DNA of 21,981 bases, from IMG/VR virus record IMGVR_UViG_3300002511_000003, positions 1-21,981 of that record; one strand, given 5' to 3'. Source of the stretch: a virus. Shown piece by piece: positions 2,193 through 14,120 of this stretch (positions are counted from its first letter, which is position 1; the number at the start of each line of letters is the position of its first letter). The notes below the pieces were generated by a model. The model was not told the DNA's origin. It ran no database searches and was given only the letters and a program-made list of their open reading frames with translations. Made by a program: the position numbers and the translations under genes.

Positions 2193-5100
2193 ATGGCTGA
2201 TGACATTAAAAATCCACCCGCATTAACCGACGAACAGATTCAGCAGATAATTAAGGCCACTAGGGAGGGCCGACCCCTTGACGTTCAGCAGACATTCAGT
2301 GAAGAGTTTGGCATGGGTGGTGGAGAAAAGGAGGTTGCGAAATACAGGGGGAGCGGAGTCACTGAACGACAACTCCATGAGTTGAAGGCGAAGTTTGGCA
2401 CGGAAGGAGTGGAGCTAGACCCCCGTGGTCTTCCGGGCGCATACCGCTCAGTAGCAGGTCTAGCATCAACACCTGGCGATAAAGAGGCTGTGTATAAGCA
2501 ATTGTTCGGCAAGAACAATGTTAAGCCAATTGGAGAAACTGGGAGGTACATAATTCGGGTTTGGCGAGGCGGTAAGCCCGTGGATGTTCTGGACGACGAA
2601 CCCTCATTGACCTTGAGAGATGTCAGTGACTTATCGGGTCTTGTTCCTGAAGTGGCGACATCTATGGCGGTTTATATGAAAAAGTTTCCTAAAGCCACTC
2701 CGGCTGGGATTGCGAGTCATATTGGTGCTGCGGCTTGGGGGGCCATGGGGGGTCAGGTAGTAGGTGGACTGAAAGATGCTGCACTGCGAGCGGCGATAGA
2801 TGAACCCGTTGATTGGGAGGAAATTGGTTCTCGCAGGGTGAAGCACGCTGCGCTGGAAACCGCATTGGGCGGCATTATCCCGTATGCTGGACAAAAGGCG
2901 GTAAGCGCACTCAAACCATCAACGATGTTTCCGGCGGCGCAAGGGTTCAGCAAGAAAATAGCGGCGGAAGGAGTGGAGGCGGCAGGGCAACTGGAAGCCA
3001 AAATGGCAACCCCCGCCGGAACTGGCATGAAGTTTCCTTTAACAGCCGGAGAAACCACGGGCGTCAAGGGCATTCAGGAGTACGAACAGCTTTCCGAGAG
3101 AATCAGTCGCTTGGTTGATCCTACCAAGCAACTCCGTGCGGCACAGGAATCCGCCATCACAAAGGGTCAGTTCGGGGTAAAAGAAACGCGAGGGGCCATT
3201 GATCCAGATTTGGGAATGAAAGTTGCTCAACGACTCGGTGAGCTTGAAAGCGGAGTGGCAAGAGGGGCAGCACATTTTGCCCGTACAGGCGTTAAGGAAG
3301 CGGAAAAGCAAGCGGCGGCTGTTACGGGCAACCTTGGGCAATCTGTTTTGGATACTGGAGCGCAATTGCGCCAAACGCTCCGCAGCACTGTTGAAAGCAA
3401 AAAAGCTGCCCTGAAGAAATCCTACAAGAAGGCTGACGAAGCACGCATGGCGATCACAGGGGCCGAGGAAAGATTTATTCTTCCCACCGAAACCAGCCAG
3501 TTAGGCAAGGAAATCACCGGAGGGGAAACCCTAATCAAAGAGACCAAGCAAACCACCCCTCTTTTCCTGCCGAAAGGGGGAAAAGTTGATGTCACAACAG
3601 GGACAACAACCGAACCCATTGGCTGGGCGGTTCCAGCGTACAAGGAAGCTCAAAGTTTTGCCAGGATAGGGTCTGACCGCCAATCGCTGGCTGCGATGAT
3701 TGAAGCGCGGGCAACATTCGGGGAGGTAATAGGTCGTGCCAATGCCACCGGCAAAGGAGAATTGGGTGGGGGCTTTTCTGTCGGACAAGCCAAGCGGTTT
3801 TACAAGGCGTTAAGCAATGACATTGATGCGAGCCTAGAGAAGTTAAGCCCCGATGTGGCTGCTTTATACAAGTCAGCACAGACAGATGCAAAGGCTCTTT
3901 TTGATGGTTACACCAAGAATCCCGTCCTCAACCGCATAAGAAGAGATGCAGCCGAAGGGGGGCTGGCTGAAGTGGGGGATATAATGGGCCTCTTCACGTC
4001 TGGCAGGGGTAAGCCCTCTCTGTTACGAGATATGGAAAAGCTGCTTCCTCCAGCAGAATACCTTTCCCTTAAGCGAGGTATATTGGCGGAATTGGGAGAC
4101 AAAGCGACAGTCCAGATAGGCAAAGGCGAGGCGGTTATAGATTTCGGGGTGTTTCAACGTAATCTGGCGAATCTTCACCCAGAATTTGCACAAAAGTTAG
4201 TGGGAGGGAAAGAGCAATATGTGAGGCTTCAGCAAGCATTAAACGATTTCGGGACGGCAGCAGAAGCGGGGGGGCGGAAGAGCATATTACAACAACCCGC
4301 CTCTGTGGGTCAAGATTCGCTGGATGCCCTGCGAAACTCTCTGGATGATCCGGCGATGTTTAGCTCTGTTAAGGAAAACATCAATAAAGCCATCAGCCTC
4401 AAGGCAAGGCAGAGAAAGGAGTTTGCAAACGAACTTACCAAGAAGATTAGGGCTGGGGATGCGTTGCCAGAGATAAACGCTGACAAATTTATTGACGATT
4501 TTGTGCTGGAGGTTGGGGACTACAAGCTGGTGAGAGATGCCCTTGAGAAGTTGCCACAGGATTTAAGGGAGGAAGTGGCGAGACAAACGATTCGCAGAAT
4601 GTTCCAAAAATCAAATGAGATGGCAAAGCAATCTTTTGATGAATTGGTGCTTCAAGATAAGGCAAGCGTCATTACCGGATCAAAGCTCCAAAAGTTGATG
4701 TACGGGGGAGACGCGCAGAGAAAAATCATACAAGAAATTCTCCCAAGAGAAACGCAGGATTTCATGGATAACCTGCTCAAGTACCAGTTAGCGATTGAAA
4801 CATCGCGGCGAAATGCTGGTTCAGTGGGGGGAATGGCTAGGGATTACGTCCTTGGAAATTTGTCTGCGTCAGTGGGGAACATAGCAATGGCTAAACTTAT
4901 TTTCTCTGGGCCTATGCAGTCTTTCCTAAAACAAGCCGCATCATCCCCCAGCGCATTGGACAGGTTAGCGGCGGCTTTAGGGAGCGGCCTTGAGTATAAA
5001 ATCCCCGGTCAAGTAGGAAAGGTAAGGATTCCCGCTGGTCTTGGAGGTGGGAAGTCCCTCTTTCCTGACAAGGTAGGGCCATATAGGGTGATGTTAGCCT

Positions 5101-5339
5101 CAAAGCTGGACAAGGAGGTTATGGGGCTTGCAAATCTATGGGGGGAAGCAACCAAGGATTTGGATGATATTCAGAGGGAGGCCCTTGAAAAAACCTACAT
5201 CTCTCTGACAGGTGACGCGCCAGAATTATCAGATGACGAAATCGCAGCCTTGGTGGCGAAGAACAAAGTTGTCCCAGCGTTACGCAAGACATTAAAGGAA
5301 CAAAGGTTTCAAGCACGTATGCCGAGGCGAAACAAGTAA
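2193..5339 (+). CDS. 1048-aa large virion protein, candidate DNA-ejection protein
   Basis: This is the largest gene in the window. The ATG follows GAGGG at suitable spacing. The protein is mostly helical and rich in A, K, E and L. A glycine/alanine-rich, weakly hydrophobic patch lies around residues 170-195 and another around 880-920, which could be membrane-active segments. A polar Gly/Ala/Lys-rich C-terminus ends in several basic residues (RMPRRNK). I see no lysozyme, transglycosylase or protease motif, although long ejection proteins sometimes carry one. Its length and its place at the end of the virion operon, before non-structural genes, resemble the large internal or ejection proteins of podoviruses. 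A tail-length or other structural role is possible. The function is inferred. Confidence 0.55.
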   Translation: MADDIKNPPALTDEQIQQIIKATREGRPLDVQQTFSEEFGMGGGEKEVAKYRGSGVTERQLHELKAKFGTEGVELDPRGLPGAYRSVAGLASTPGDKEAVYKQLFGKNNVKPIGETGRYIIRVWRGGKPVDVLDDEPSLTLRDVSDLSGLVPEVATSMAVYMKKFPKATPAGIASHIGAAAWGAMGGQVVGGLKDAALRAAIDEPVDWEEIGSRRVKHAALETALGGIIPYAGQKAVSALKPSTMFPAAQGFSKKIAAEGVEAAGQLEAKMATPAGTGMKFPLTAGETTGVKGIQEYEQLSERISRLVDPTKQLRAAQESAITKGQFGVKETRGAIDPDLGMKVAQRLGELESGVARGAAHFARTGVKEAEKQAAAVTGNLGQSVLDTGAQLRQTLRSTVESKKAALKKSYKKADEARMAITGAEERFILPTETSQLGKEITGGETLIKETKQTTPLFLPKGGKVDVTTGTTTEPIGWAVPAYKEAQSFARIGSDRQSLAAMIEARATFGEVIGRANATGKGELGGGFSVGQAKRFYKALSNDIDASLEKLSPDVAALYKSAQTDAKALFDGYTKNPVLNRIRRDAAEGGLAEVGDIMGLFTSGRGKPSLLRDMEKLLPPAEYLSLKRGILAELGDKATVQIGKGEAVIDFGVFQRNLANLHPEFAQKLVGGKEQYVRLQQALNDFGTAAEAGGRKSILQQPASVGQDSLDALRNSLDDPAMFSSVKENINKAISLKARQRKEFANELTKKIRAGDALPEINADKFIDDFVLEVGDYKLVRDALEKLPQDLREEVARQTIRRMFQKSNEMAKQSFDELVLQDKASVITGSKLQKLMYGGDAQRKIIQEILPRETQDFMDNLLKYQLAIETSRRNAGSVGGMARDYVLGNLSASVGNIAMAKLIFSGPMQSFLKQAASSPSALDRLAAALGSGLEYKIPGQVGKVRIPAGLGGGKSLFPDKVGPYRVMLASKLDKEVMGLANLWGEATKDLDDIQREALEKTYISLTGDAPELSDDEIAALVAKNKVVPALRKTLKEQRFQARMPRRNK

Positions 5340-5372: not shown

Positions 5373-6134
5373 ATGAAAGGAAGTACCACAGAAAGTTTTG
5401 TAGCATGGGGGGATGCCCATGGTGACATGTCGTCACGCTCCACGATAGATGCCCTTGAGAAGCACATCGCAGAGTTAAAACCCAAACACCGAATCTGCCT
5501 CGGAGATAACTTTGATTTGCGAAGTCTCCGCAAGGGAGTAAGCAATCAGGATTCCGAACATTATGATTCTTTGGTGAGCGATCTCACGCAGGGCTACAAT
5601 ATGTTGGAGCGGCTACGCCCCACAGTCTTTCTTAACGGCAACCACGAATTTAGGCTCTACAACACTGCCGAGAATGCAGCCAGCGGCATTGTGCGCCAGT
5701 ATTGCCAAGAGGGAGTGGACAAGCTGGAGAAGTACCTGCGGAAGATGGGCTGTAAGGTGTATCCGTATCACTACGACCAAGGAGTGCATAGGATTGGCTC
5801 TGTCGCCTTTGTTCACGGCTACACGGCCAACGTGGCGGCTGTTAAACAGCACGCAGAGATTTACGCCGATCCTGGTGGTGCGGTGGTCATGGGGCATTTG
5901 CACAGGATTGAAGCTGTTCAAGCAGTGCGGCATGGGGGAGCGAAAGGTTATTCTGGCGGATGTTGCGCCAACATACCGAGGCTAACTTATGCTGCGCTGC
6001 GACCAGCCACAATGCGATGGGAGAATGGCTGGTTGTTTGGTATAGTGGGTAAGGGCAAAAAAAACTTTAAGATATGGCAAGCCGAAAGAACAAACGGAAA
6101 GTGGATTCTTCCAACGAACCTGACGGAGCTTTAA
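5373..6134 (+). CDS. Calcineurin-like metallophosphoesterase
   Basis: The binuclear metal-site motifs appear in order: D14-x-H16 (WGDAHGD), GDNFD at 44-48, GNHE at 89-92, a VHG motif at 147-149 and GHLH at 174-177. These are the hallmark motifs of the calcineurin-like phosphoesterase superfamily, and the length of 253 aa is typical for a stand-alone enzyme. The substrate cannot be told from sequence; phage members have been linked to hydrolysis of cyclic nucleotides, phosphodiesters or nucleic-acid ends. The start follows a G-run (GGGGGG). The gene is 33 bases after the large virion gene and its end overlaps the next gene by 61 bases. It could be a host-takeover or anti-defence enzyme (inference). 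Confidence 0.9.
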   Translation: MKGSTTESFVAWGDAHGDMSSRSTIDALEKHIAELKPKHRICLGDNFDLRSLRKGVSNQDSEHYDSLVSDLTQGYNMLERLRPTVFLNGNHEFRLYNTAENAASGIVRQYCQEGVDKLEKYLRKMGCKVYPYHYDQGVHRIGSVAFVHGYTANVAAVKQHAEIYADPGGAVVMGHLHRIEAVQAVRHGGAKGYSGGCCANIPRLTYAALRPATMRWENGWLFGIVGKGKKNFKIWQAERTNGKWILPTNLTEL

Positions 6135-11273: not shown

Positions 11274-11950
11274 TGTCAGGGGTTATTGACAGTTACGGTT
11301 TTATGCAGCTTGACCCGTTCATCCGGTGCAACTCGCACTGGGTAAGGGACTTCTTTCCGGTGGATGATGCGGAGACGCTCAAGGATGCCAACCGGACGGG
11401 AGCCTACAAGCATCAGGAGATCGTAAAGGTGCTGCCGAACTATACCGAGCGAGAACTTTTGCGGCTCACGGAGAAGGAGGAGTTGCGGAGGGAGAAGGCG
11501 CATGGGGTTGGGCGTGAATATGTAAACTGGCGTTGGGTTAGGCGTGAGATTGAAAGAGATGCTAGGTCGTACCGGAAGGAACAGGCCGCGAGCCGCAAGG
11601 GCAAGTCCTCAAGGGCAAGATACAAGCCGACTGATGGAGTGCTGGGGTACTCCCCTCCCGAACCTAGTTGGGGAGATGGGCGAACAAGTTGGGTGGAGGC
11701 GTACCCTGAAACTTGGGATCACCTCACATTCCAGGATACCCAGCTGGTCAAGAGCCTTGCCAACCCTAACCGCCATGACCCTCCGCAAGTCAATAAGCTG
11801 ATAGAGGAAATTAAAGTCACCCTCAAGGCGGAGATGCTGAAGGCTTACCAACCCAAACAAGTCGCCCAAGTGTGGAAGAACTTCTTTGCCGCTCTGGAGG
11901 GGATAGCTCCACTGCGGGAGAAGCTGAGAGAGATTAACTATGAAATTTAA
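11273..11950 (+). CDS. Hypothetical 225-aa protein in the replication operon
   Basis: The ATG shares one base with the previous stop (TAATG). The central part is strongly basic and helical (RRREIERDARSYRKEQ-like charge pattern around residues 80-115), then a Pro/Trp/Gly-rich linker, then a helical C-terminus. I see no catalytic motif. Operon position among recombination and replication genes suggests a DNA-related role, such as a primosome or helicase-loader-like component, but there is no direct evidence. Its end overlaps a 37-codon ORF by 11 bases. Confidence 0.6.
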   Translation: MSGVIDSYGFMQLDPFIRCNSHWVRDFFPVDDAETLKDANRTGAYKHQEIVKVLPNYTERELLRLTEKEELRREKAHGVGREYVNWRWVRREIERDARSYRKEQAASRKGKSSRARYKPTDGVLGYSPPEPSWGDGRTSWVEAYPETWDHLTFQDTQLVKSLANPNRHDPPQVNKLIEEIKVTLKAEMLKAYQPKQVAQVWKNFFAALEGIAPLREKLREINYEI

Positions 11951-12053
11951 CCGGCACGCAGCGGTCTACTGGGTTCGCCTCCTAGCTAGGCGGGGTGCAT
12001 CCACTCCGGCTATTCAAAAACCCACGTTGCGTGTCGGTGCTTTTAACAAGTGA
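11940..12053 (+). CDS. 37-aa basic ORF, possible coupling peptide upstream of the methyltransferase
   Basis: An ATG inside the end of the previous gene opens a frame of 37 codons that ends TGA at 12051-12053. The stop is overlapped by the GTG start of the methyltransferase and directly followed by the ATG of the nested frame (GTGAATG). The peptide is basic (RLLARRGAS, KPTLRVG). A 5-bp hairpin (11976-11992) lies within it. There is no ribosome binding site for the methyltransferase, so terminating ribosomes may supply its translation. Whether the peptide itself has a function is unknown. Confidence 0.45.
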   Translation: MKFNRHAAVYWVRLLARRGASTPAIQKPTLRVGAFNK

Positions 12054-12874
12054 ATGAACGACGAAAACACATTGATCTCTTCAGCGGGATCGGAGGATTC
12101 GCCCTTGCAAGCAATGCTGCCGGGTTTTCCACCAGCGTGTTCTGCGAGTCCGACCCCTACGCCACCAGAGTCCTCAAGCGACATTGGCCCACCGTCCCAA
12201 TCATCAAAGACATCCGAGAGTTTGACGGCACAAGATGGCGAGGGGCCGACCTCCTCACAGGCGGATTTCCTTGCCAACCTTTCAGTCAAGCCGGGGAGCG
12301 ACGAGGCGAGGAGGATGACCGTGCGCTCTGGCCTGAAATGTTCAGAGTTATTAAAGAAGCAAGACCCGATTTCGTGCTTGCAGAGAATGTTGCTGGCCTC
12401 ATCAACATGGCACTCGACGATGTGCTTTCTCAACTGGAAGGCGAAGGGTACTCCACGGGGACGGTTGTACTTCCAGCTTGCTCCCTCAACGCCCCGCACA
12501 GACGAGACAGGGTGTGGATACTTGCCCACGCCGACAGCATCCGATGCGAACACCCACTGGAACGACAAGATTCGTTACGACAGTCTATCAGCGGAAATAA
12601 ACAGACAACGGGACGACCCCAACAGGATGTGGCCCACGCCAACAAGTCGAGATTGGAAGGATGGTCGCAAACCTTACGACAGAAAGAAGGACGGAACAGC
12701 GACACAGGACACACTGGGGAGAACTCTAGCTGCGATGGGCGAGACAACCAATGGAGCGTTGAACCCAACGTGGGTCGAGTGGCTCATGGGATACCCTCTC
12801 GGACACACAGACTTAAAGCCCTCGGAAACGCCATCGTCCCACAAGTAGCTTATGAAATACTAAAAAGAATATGA
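12050..12874 (+). CDS. dcm: DNA (cytosine-5) methyltransferase, Dcm-like
   Basis: The 274-aa protein carries the C5-methyltransferase motifs in order: I, DLFSGIGGF (9-17); IV, GGFPCQPFS with catalytic C75; VI, ENV (112-114); VIII, RRDRVW (151-156); and IX/X, RLKALGNAIVPQ (254-265). The target-recognition part (about 158-250) is short and low in complexity, with AHAD and AHAN repeats and VGRVAHGIP. It methylates cytosine C5 in a short site, probably protecting phage DNA from restriction. No cognate endonuclease is nearby. The start is GTG at 12050, overlapping the stop of a 37-codon ORF, and the end overlaps the next ATG (ATGA). A second long frame is nested inside at +1. Confidence 0.93.
   Translation: MNERRKHIDLFSGIGGFALASNAAGFSTSVFCESDPYATRVLKRHWPTVPIIKDIREFDGTRWRGADLLTGGFPCQPFSQAGERRGEEDDRALWPEMFRVIKEARPDFVLAENVAGLINMALDDVLSQLEGEGYSTGTVVLPACSLNAPHRRDRVWILAHADSIRCEHPLERQDSLRQSISGNKQTTGRPQQDVAHANKSRLEGWSQTLRQKEGRNSDTGHTGENSSCDGRDNQWSVEPNVGRVAHGIPSRTHRLKALGNAIVPQVAYEILKRI
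12054..12848 (+). CDS. 264-aa ORF nested in dcm in the +1 frame (dual-coded candidate gene)
   Basis: The ATG is 4 bases after the dcm GTG and the frame stays open to 12848, entirely inside dcm. The product has features I recall from separately annotated phage proteins found near C5 methyltransferases: CFLNWKAKGTPRGRLYFQL, then ETGCGYLPTPTASD, WPTPTSRDWKDGR and LNPTWVEWLMGYPLGHTDL. The N-terminal 65 residues are Ser/Pro/Thr-rich and look disordered. The same nucleotides give AHAD/AHAN in Dcm and LPTPT/WPTPT here, and RVAHGIP versus VEWLMGYP. It may be a real second protein, or a conserved shadow of dcm that has been annotated elsewhere. Length alone is weak support, because antisense frames up to 222 codons also occur in this window. 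Confidence 0.5.
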   Translation: MNDENTLISSAGSEDSPLQAMLPGFPPACSASPTPTPPESSSDIGPPSQSSKTSESLTAQDGEGPTSSQADFLANLSVKPGSDEARRMTVRSGLKCSELLKKQDPISCLQRMLLASSTWHSTMCFLNWKAKGTPRGRLYFQLAPSTPRTDETGCGYLPTPTASDANTHWNDKIRYDSLSAEINRQRDDPNRMWPTPTSRDWKDGRKPYDRKKDGTATQDTLGRTLAAMGETTNGALNPTWVEWLMGYPLGHTDLKPSETPSSHK

Positions 12875-13526: not shown

Positions 13527-13675
13527 CTGAATACGATTTTAGTGAGGACGAGCTTCACGATGAGCCGGTCAACAAATGCCCGGAGTGCGGGACAATGCGA
13601 TGGTTTGAATCGGGCAGCAGCAATATGCTCGCTTGCCATGAATGTGGGTACGGAGAAAGGGAAGAGGATGAGTAA
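13523..13675 (+). CDS. 50-aa zinc-ribbon protein
   Basis: The ATG overlaps the stop of the RusA C-terminal frame (ATGA). That is good evidence that this frame is translated through to its end. The product has an acidic N-terminus, CPECG (19-23), a short beta hairpin and CHECG (38-42), then an acidic tail. Two CxxC knuckles 15-20 residues apart define a minimal zinc ribbon. Such small phage proteins are usually annotated as hypothetical. It overlaps the start of the Lar-like gene by 8 bases. Confidence 0.7.
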   Translation: MTEYDFSEDELHDEPVNKCPECGTMRWFESGSSNMLACHECGYGEREEDE

Positions 13676-14120
13676 AGAAACAAGAATAAACATAGCCGAA
13701 GTAGACTTACTGCCCTGCCCGTTTTGCGGGGGCAAACCTGAAACAGACTTCTGGGAAGGAGACGACAAGAATGCAGATTCTTTCACCATCGGATGCCTTG
13801 ATGGGTGTTGCCATTTAAGCGATCCGCTTCCAGAGGAGTTGGTGAATGAATGGAATACGCGAGAGGGCAAGCTATTGGTGGAACAAGTGCCGGAAGTGGT
13901 TGGCAAATTCAGGATGGCTTACCATGGCACGTATGTCGCCATAAACATATTTCAGGAAATGCGGGAGGTGGCGGATTGGATGGCTAAAGTGATGAAGCCA
14001 GAGAACGCTAATGAATACGAAGACCCCTCTAACGAGAGAATGACGCTTAAAGACCTGTCCTATCAGCTTGAAAGCCTTGGCTGGGTTCGGAAGGAAGATG
14101 AAGAAAAGCGCGACACTTGA
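13668..14120 (+). CDS. Lar-like restriction alleviation family protein with C-terminal extension
   Basis: I chose ATG 13668 (MSKETRIN, after GGGAAG). The frame is open further upstream, but that part overlaps the zinc-ribbon gene. Residues 13-60 match the Lar/restriction-alleviation zinc-finger pattern: LLPCPFCGGKP, then IGCLDGCC, then a helix ending VNEWNTR. Lar of the Rac prophage modulates type I restriction to protect unmodified DNA. This protein has about 85 extra residues after the domain, with no motif I recognise. Together with the orphan methyltransferase it suggests an anti-restriction strategy. Family membership is fairly sure, the activity is not. Confidence 0.75.
   Translation: MSKETRINIAEVDLLPCPFCGGKPETDFWEGDDKNADSFTIGCLDGCCHLSDPLPEELVNEWNTREGKLLVEQVPEVVGKFRMAYHGTYVAINIFQEMREVADWMAKVMKPENANEYEDPSNERMTLKDLSYQLESLGWVRKEDEEKRDT

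Follow-up and report, generated by a model that had tools for sequence, protein, structure and literature searches.

Lee, Kam and Shaw are said to have reported in NAR in 1995 that the small-chain gene of M.EcoHK31I is nested in the large-chain gene in another frame and that both chains are needed in vitro. The specificity of M.EcoHK31I is YGGCCR. M.EaeI is another C5 methyltransferase composed of two polypeptides. In M.EcoHK31I, a characterised two-chain C5 methyltransferase, the large chain carries motifs I-VIII and X and the small chain carries motif IX, with the predicted recognition domain assigned to the large chain (PMC3404938). In M.AquI, motifs IX and X belong to the small chain, together with part of the variable region (PMC3404938). 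In the literature covered, which was partial, no account of genes nested within those of phage C5 methyltransferases was found.

The DNA analysed here (the window, 21,981 nucleotides) is a portion of a 25.7 kb virus record. Based on sequence comparisons and structure models, positions 12050-12874 of the window very probably code for the two chains of a single C5-cytosine DNA methyltransferase, an alpha-beta heterodimer of the M.EcoHK31I type. The gene of alpha, the putative large chain (274 amino acids; motifs I-VIII and X), starts with GTG at 12050 and ends with a stop codon at 12872-12874. A 264-codon ORF in the +1 frame runs from an ATG at 12054 to a stop at 12848, and its product, beta, is the proposed small chain, which would carry the DNA-recognition part and motif IX. 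These and the features within the locus described below are on the + strand. The sequence-only reading had placed the +1 frame wholly within dcm and had derived motifs of both products from the same bases, and the sequence confirmed this: the bases read as ILAHAD, DVAHAN and RVAHGIP in alpha are read as LPTPT, WPTPT and VEWLMGYP, respectively, in beta. The two start codons fall inside five bases, right where a 37-codon ORF ends (ATG at 11940, TGA at 12051-12053). Dual starts of the form 'RTGAATGA' are common to many relatives in which the beta frame is already open where alpha starts. This arrangement suggests possible translational coupling.

Alpha matched the Pfam family DNA_methylase (E 4e-47) and also phrog_363. 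When compared with M.HhaI, the alpha profile matched motifs I-VIII and, weakly, motif X, and motif IX was not matched. Motif IV, Pro-Cys-Gln with the catalytic cysteine, lies at 12269-12277 (P74, C75 and Q76 invariant in 78 homologs), motif VI, Glu-Asn-Val, at 12383-12391 (E112 invariant, N113 and V114 nearly so), motif VIII (RRDRVW) at 12500-12517 (R152 and R154 invariant), and motif X (RLKALGNAIVPQ) at 12809-12844 (G259 and N260 invariant, with helices predicted at residues 251-259 and 264-273). The AF2 model of alpha contained an HhaI-like catalytic domain with pLDDT values mostly above 90 and a VIA Z of 21 to M.HhaI. The pLDDT was below 50 at amino acids 172-234 and 238-246, where the target-recognition domain is expected, and the linker of amino acids 164-246 (12539-12787) was predicted to be disordered. 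Among 124 distinct viral homologs, motif X was present in the alpha frame of 122, while the motif-IX pattern was found in the alpha frame of none and in the +1 frame of 109. Alpha thus lacks motif IX and, as modelled, a folded target-recognition domain.

The beta product matched phrog_1008 (E 2e-37), a phage family labelled 'DNA methyltransferase', and no family in Pfam or NCBIfam. The best-predicted part of beta is a hairpin at 12426-12488, with AF2 strands at residues 125-132 and 138-145 within FLNWKAKGTPRGRLYFQL and a mean pLDDT of 90 in the block of residues 131-140. The repeats LPTPTxxD and WPTPTxxD (12522-12647), read from the alpha LAHAD and VAHAN, occur in frame in single-chain mycobacteriophage enzymes. 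The C-terminus consists of the motif-IX-like segment LNPTWVEWLMGYPLGHT (12759-12809; L236, P238 and G246 invariant) plus a short tail. This segment was aligned by hhalign to FPEWMMGWPAGW of the single-chain mycobacteriophage enzymes (E 1.2e-8), and its profile alignment to the canonical motif IX LTPKECWRLQGFPD was weak but exactly placed (E 0.003, probability 10%). A search of PDB sequences with the beta profile returned nothing up to E 10. When beta was modelled alone, AF2 gave a pLDDT of 57, which is too low for a fold search; a low value is what a partner-dependent chain should give, though it does not prove that beta has a partner. The recognition part appears to be located on beta.

To evaluate the openness of the +1 frame, the alpha gene was shuffled synonymously, with the alpha protein and codon usage held fixed. 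In the window, the +1 frame did not reach 264 codons in any of 5,000 shuffles (mean 99, maximum 254). Across the 124 homologs, the longest +1 frame averaged 252 codons as compared with 98 in the shuffles, and all 124 were significant at p<0.05, while the +2 frame of the same genes was significant in only 6. The test is calibrated, since only 8 of 150 unrelated ORFs, nearly all taken from the same contig set, were positive (5%, chance level). A metallophosphatase-like gene in the window (5373-6134) had a +1 frame open over 0.53 of its length as compared with 0.22 in shuffles, an observation to be read against those 8 positives in 150 control ORFs. Scores of homologs were also compared with synonymous resampling (beta median z 7.4), and this test was set aside as evidence because the +2 control frame rose too (median 3.9).

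We counted substitutions by their effect in both frames in 30 close homolog pairs. The homologs are related, and counts among them are accordingly not independent events; the pairs were picked so that no sequence recurs. Across alpha amino acids 61-262, the omega of beta was 0.40 (CI 0.30-0.51), indicating purifying selection; it was 0.35-0.42 over amino acids 61-232 and 0.35-0.39 over amino acids 61-163. In the linker (alpha amino acids 164-232), alpha was neutral with an omega of 0.96 (0.82-1.13), whereas that of beta was 0.40 (0.26-0.54). Thus, the DNA in the linker is kept for beta, and alpha need only stay open there. This outcome of the per-frame rate comparison proposed in the sequence-only reading, together with the disorder in the AF2 model, strongly supports its suggestion of a conserved dual-coding locus in which the target-recognition region of Dcm serves as a linker carrying the second protein. 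Over alpha amino acids 2-60, the omega of beta was near neutral (0.75-0.84, with confidence intervals including 1), and therefore either there is no constraint on the first ca. 55 residues of beta or its translation begins at an internal codon. Selection is measurable from about 12222, where an alternative TTG start is located, and the conserved core of beta accordingly spans 12222-12848; ATG codons lie upstream at 12054 and 12114. The start of beta is probably ATG 12054, which lies four bases past the alpha GTG, or else an internal codon near 12222.

Rates at the third codon positions of alpha agree with this. In 52 independent pairs, third-position divergence was 0.31 at alpha amino acids 1-20 and 0.28 at 263-274, beyond the conserved part of beta, and 0.155 at 111-163 and 0.128 at 233-262; the ratio of third- to first-position divergence fell from ca. 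3 outside the conserved part of beta to ca. 0.8 inside it. In addition, the Ala codon of alpha RVAxG, which lies beneath the Leu of beta WLMG, was GCT in 99 of 100 genes, as compared with 23% of Ala codons generally. The substitution pattern shows the beta frame to be coding and conserved.

Three layouts of the same domain were recognised among relatives. In VRedHorse and ca. 25 relatives, motifs I-VIII, LPTPxARDxK-like repeats, motif IX and motif X lie in one ORF; the chain order in the VRedHorse family of mycobacteriophages is I-VIII, LLPTPVARD repeats, FPEWMMGWPAGW and X. In Toaka, Jordennis and a few others, motifs I-VIII are in one gene, and the repeats, IX and X are in a partly overlapping +1 gene. 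The nested layout was found in the window, in Mycobacterium phage Hades (alpha of 237 amino acids, beta in +1), in E. coli prophage genes, in enterobacterial phages and in prophages or contigs assigned to many bacterial phyla. To judge from these sequences, nested C5 pairs are widespread in phages and prophages. Beta overlapped alpha in all 246 sequences examined, which were loci found with beta or alpha queries, and none of these contained a free-standing beta gene. Of 387 overlapping domain hits, 381 were at offset +1 and the other 6 at offset 0, loci with disrupted frames among them. That the second product should have no homolog outside dcm overlaps, a point on which the sequence-only reading had hinged its test, therefore held for free-standing genes among the loci examined and did not hold for homologous segments, which occur in frame within single-chain enzymes and also in genes that overlap in part.

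Several individual loci are worth recording. The annotation of Paenibacillus phage Shelly records a 'g55 internal gene', and that of Escherichia phage fTaEco01 has an inner 'putative Mte8-like' methyltransferase. One E. coli prophage (L165) carries two different nested C5 methyltransferase pairs, at 1342-2418 and 4390-5127. A search of E. coli DNA for a close EcoHK31I-like locus returned prophage genes only. Five single-chain mycobacteriophage enzymes (L268, L269, L270, L276 and L284) have genes in which an ORF of 177-192 codons is nested in the +1 frame, with a product that matches beta in its N-terminal half (E 1e-15 to 1e-17); for L268, the openness of this ORF alone was not significant (p 0.08). 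These five may possibly represent an intermediate layout.

Single-chain C5 genes that have every motif, taken from phages of Streptococcus and others (L308-L387), had been intended as a negative control. The motif-IX pattern was in frame in 69 of 70 of them and in the +1 frame of none. Nevertheless, they hold a +1 ORF over motifs IV-VIII that is without motif IX, with a mean of 166 codons as compared with 65 in shuffles (significant in 69 of 70), and third positions are suppressed there. The nested products end in SLSDILE..KYFLS and match phrog_16143. We observed that phrog_1008 and phrog_16143, both labelled DNA methyltransferase, match the +1 nested products and not the methyltransferase frame. 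The dmt gene of phage P1 (L389, NC_005856.1, 66412-68676) contains an unannotated 163-codon +1 ORF at ca. 66710-67201, over codons 99-262. Third-position divergence, measured in 38 pairs of P1-type genes, was ca. 0.40 before the nested ORF, 0.13 inside it and 0.32-0.38 after it, boundaries that fit the ORF, while the openness test alone was weaker (42 of 77). The C5 genes of phage Wphi and of a Ruminococcus phage had no long +1 ORF. Beta also resembled the nested products of complete C5 genes (profile E 5.5e-7). We did not count this similarity as a sign of independent homology, since the two are read over homologous Dcm motifs and in one and the same frame relative to Dcm.

Since complete C5 genes hold nested ORFs without motif IX, the supply of motif IX cannot be the whole function of such ORFs, and in the complete class it cannot be their function at all. 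It is likely that phage C5 genes commonly hold a second selected +1 gene, which in the class of the window would provide the recognition part and motif IX, and in the complete class, including P1 dmt and many Streptococcus phage genes, would have a role that has not been described, probably that of a built-in enzyme partner. The presence of selected +1 ORFs in genes that already have every motif is also what would be expected if beta were a separate protein, such as a regulator, an inhibitor or an anti-restriction factor, that shares the gene by chance and does not complete the enzyme. However, in the class of the window alpha has neither motif IX nor a folded recognition region, and the beta segment is homologous to the in-frame recognition and motif-IX region of single-chain relatives. 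We thus regard a separate protein as unlikely.

A programmed frameshift near motif VIII would yield one fused chain with motifs I-VIII, the recognition part and motif IX, and no free beta. The existence of single-chain homologs is compatible with this, as are two loci (L076 and L077, 2994-3841) in which the frames are swapped by an indel, so that a single ORF continues from alpha I-VIII into the recognition part and motif IX of beta. In these loci, motif X is in another frame; they are identical in two metagenomes, and the change is either a natural indel or an assembly error. On the other hand, beta is under selection far upstream of motif VIII, over the alpha amino acids 61-163 mentioned above, which a shift at that point would not need, and almost every nested beta has one or more possible starts within its own frame. 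A frameshift is, accordingly, quite improbable. Least probable of all, to the point that we consider it very nearly eliminated, is the counter-view of the sequence-only reading that beta is an untranslated shadow frame conserved only through the constraint of Dcm on the same bases: conserved Dcm motifs do give weak partial matches to the beta profile when the +1 fragments come from genes that lack a whole nested beta (E ca. 1e-3 to 1e-7) and do inflate the similarity of beta to other nested ORFs, but beta is constrained where the Dcm frame is free, third positions that are free in Dcm are suppressed only across beta, one Ala codon is fixed as GCT, the shuffles and ORF controls point the same way, and a WVEWLMG-like shadow was present in 0 of 70 complete C5 genes.

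Returning to the heterodimer, alpha would be the catalytic part of the enzyme, binding AdoMet and attacking the cytosine with motifs I-VIII, which motif X closes. Beta would be a separate translation product of the +1 frame and would supply motif IX and probably the DNA-recognition domain, and the active enzyme would be the alpha-beta heterodimer, as in M.EcoHK31I. On the sequence and model evidence, we infer that both chains are made and bind each other and that beta reads the target. The neighbours of the locus include RecT, a PD-(D/E)XK nuclease, a DnaA-C-like protein and a weakly matched Lar-like restriction-alleviation protein (window 13542-14120; E 1e-4, under the Pfam cut-off). Since no restriction nuclease was recognised among the neighbours of the methyltransferase, the phage would most likely use the enzyme to guard its own DNA against restriction.

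As compared by description, alpha resembles the large chain of M.EcoHK31I in having motifs I-VIII and X, with motif IX on beta, and the small chain of that enzyme is likewise said to be encoded within the large-chain gene in another frame. Since alpha is without motif IX and beta carries it, a heterodimer of the M.EcoHK31I type is most likely, and the claim of an undescribed system at this locus is not supported, M.EcoHK31I being already characterised as a two-chain enzyme with motif IX on its small chain (PMC3404938). Unlike in M.EcoHK31I, the recognition stretch of alpha in the window is disordered and neutral, the conserved frame there being that of beta, and the copy resides in a phage without a recognised restriction nuclease. 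Because the large chain has no recognition domain of the M.EcoHK31I kind, we call the window locus a variant that would work like M.EcoHK31I and not a proven member. It shares with M.AquI the division of one enzyme's motifs over two chains, the partly overlapping layout of which is seen in Toaka and Jordennis, but it keeps motif X on alpha and its beta is fully nested. It shares with the VRedHorse-type enzymes the TPTxxD-like repeats and a FPEWMMGWPxGW segment between motifs VIII and X, but does not have all motifs in one frame and chain; it differs from canonical single-chain C5 methyltransferases in that motif IX is not in frame with the others.

What appears to go beyond M.EcoHK31I is the wide spread in phages and prophages, the apparent location of the recognition part on beta and the nested ORFs in complete C5 genes. 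Few long, fully nested phage gene pairs show clear selection on both frames. Here both products apparently belong to one enzyme, so that the overlap would have a direct reason in function, and since relatives show one-chain, partly overlapping and nested forms of the domain, the origin of the overlap is traceable. Through the nested ORF of P1 dmt, the second class is open to testing in a laboratory phage. If the heterodimer reading is true, many phage 'DNA methyltransferase' genes are annotated as half an enzyme, and expressing alpha alone, or assigning its specificity, would fail.
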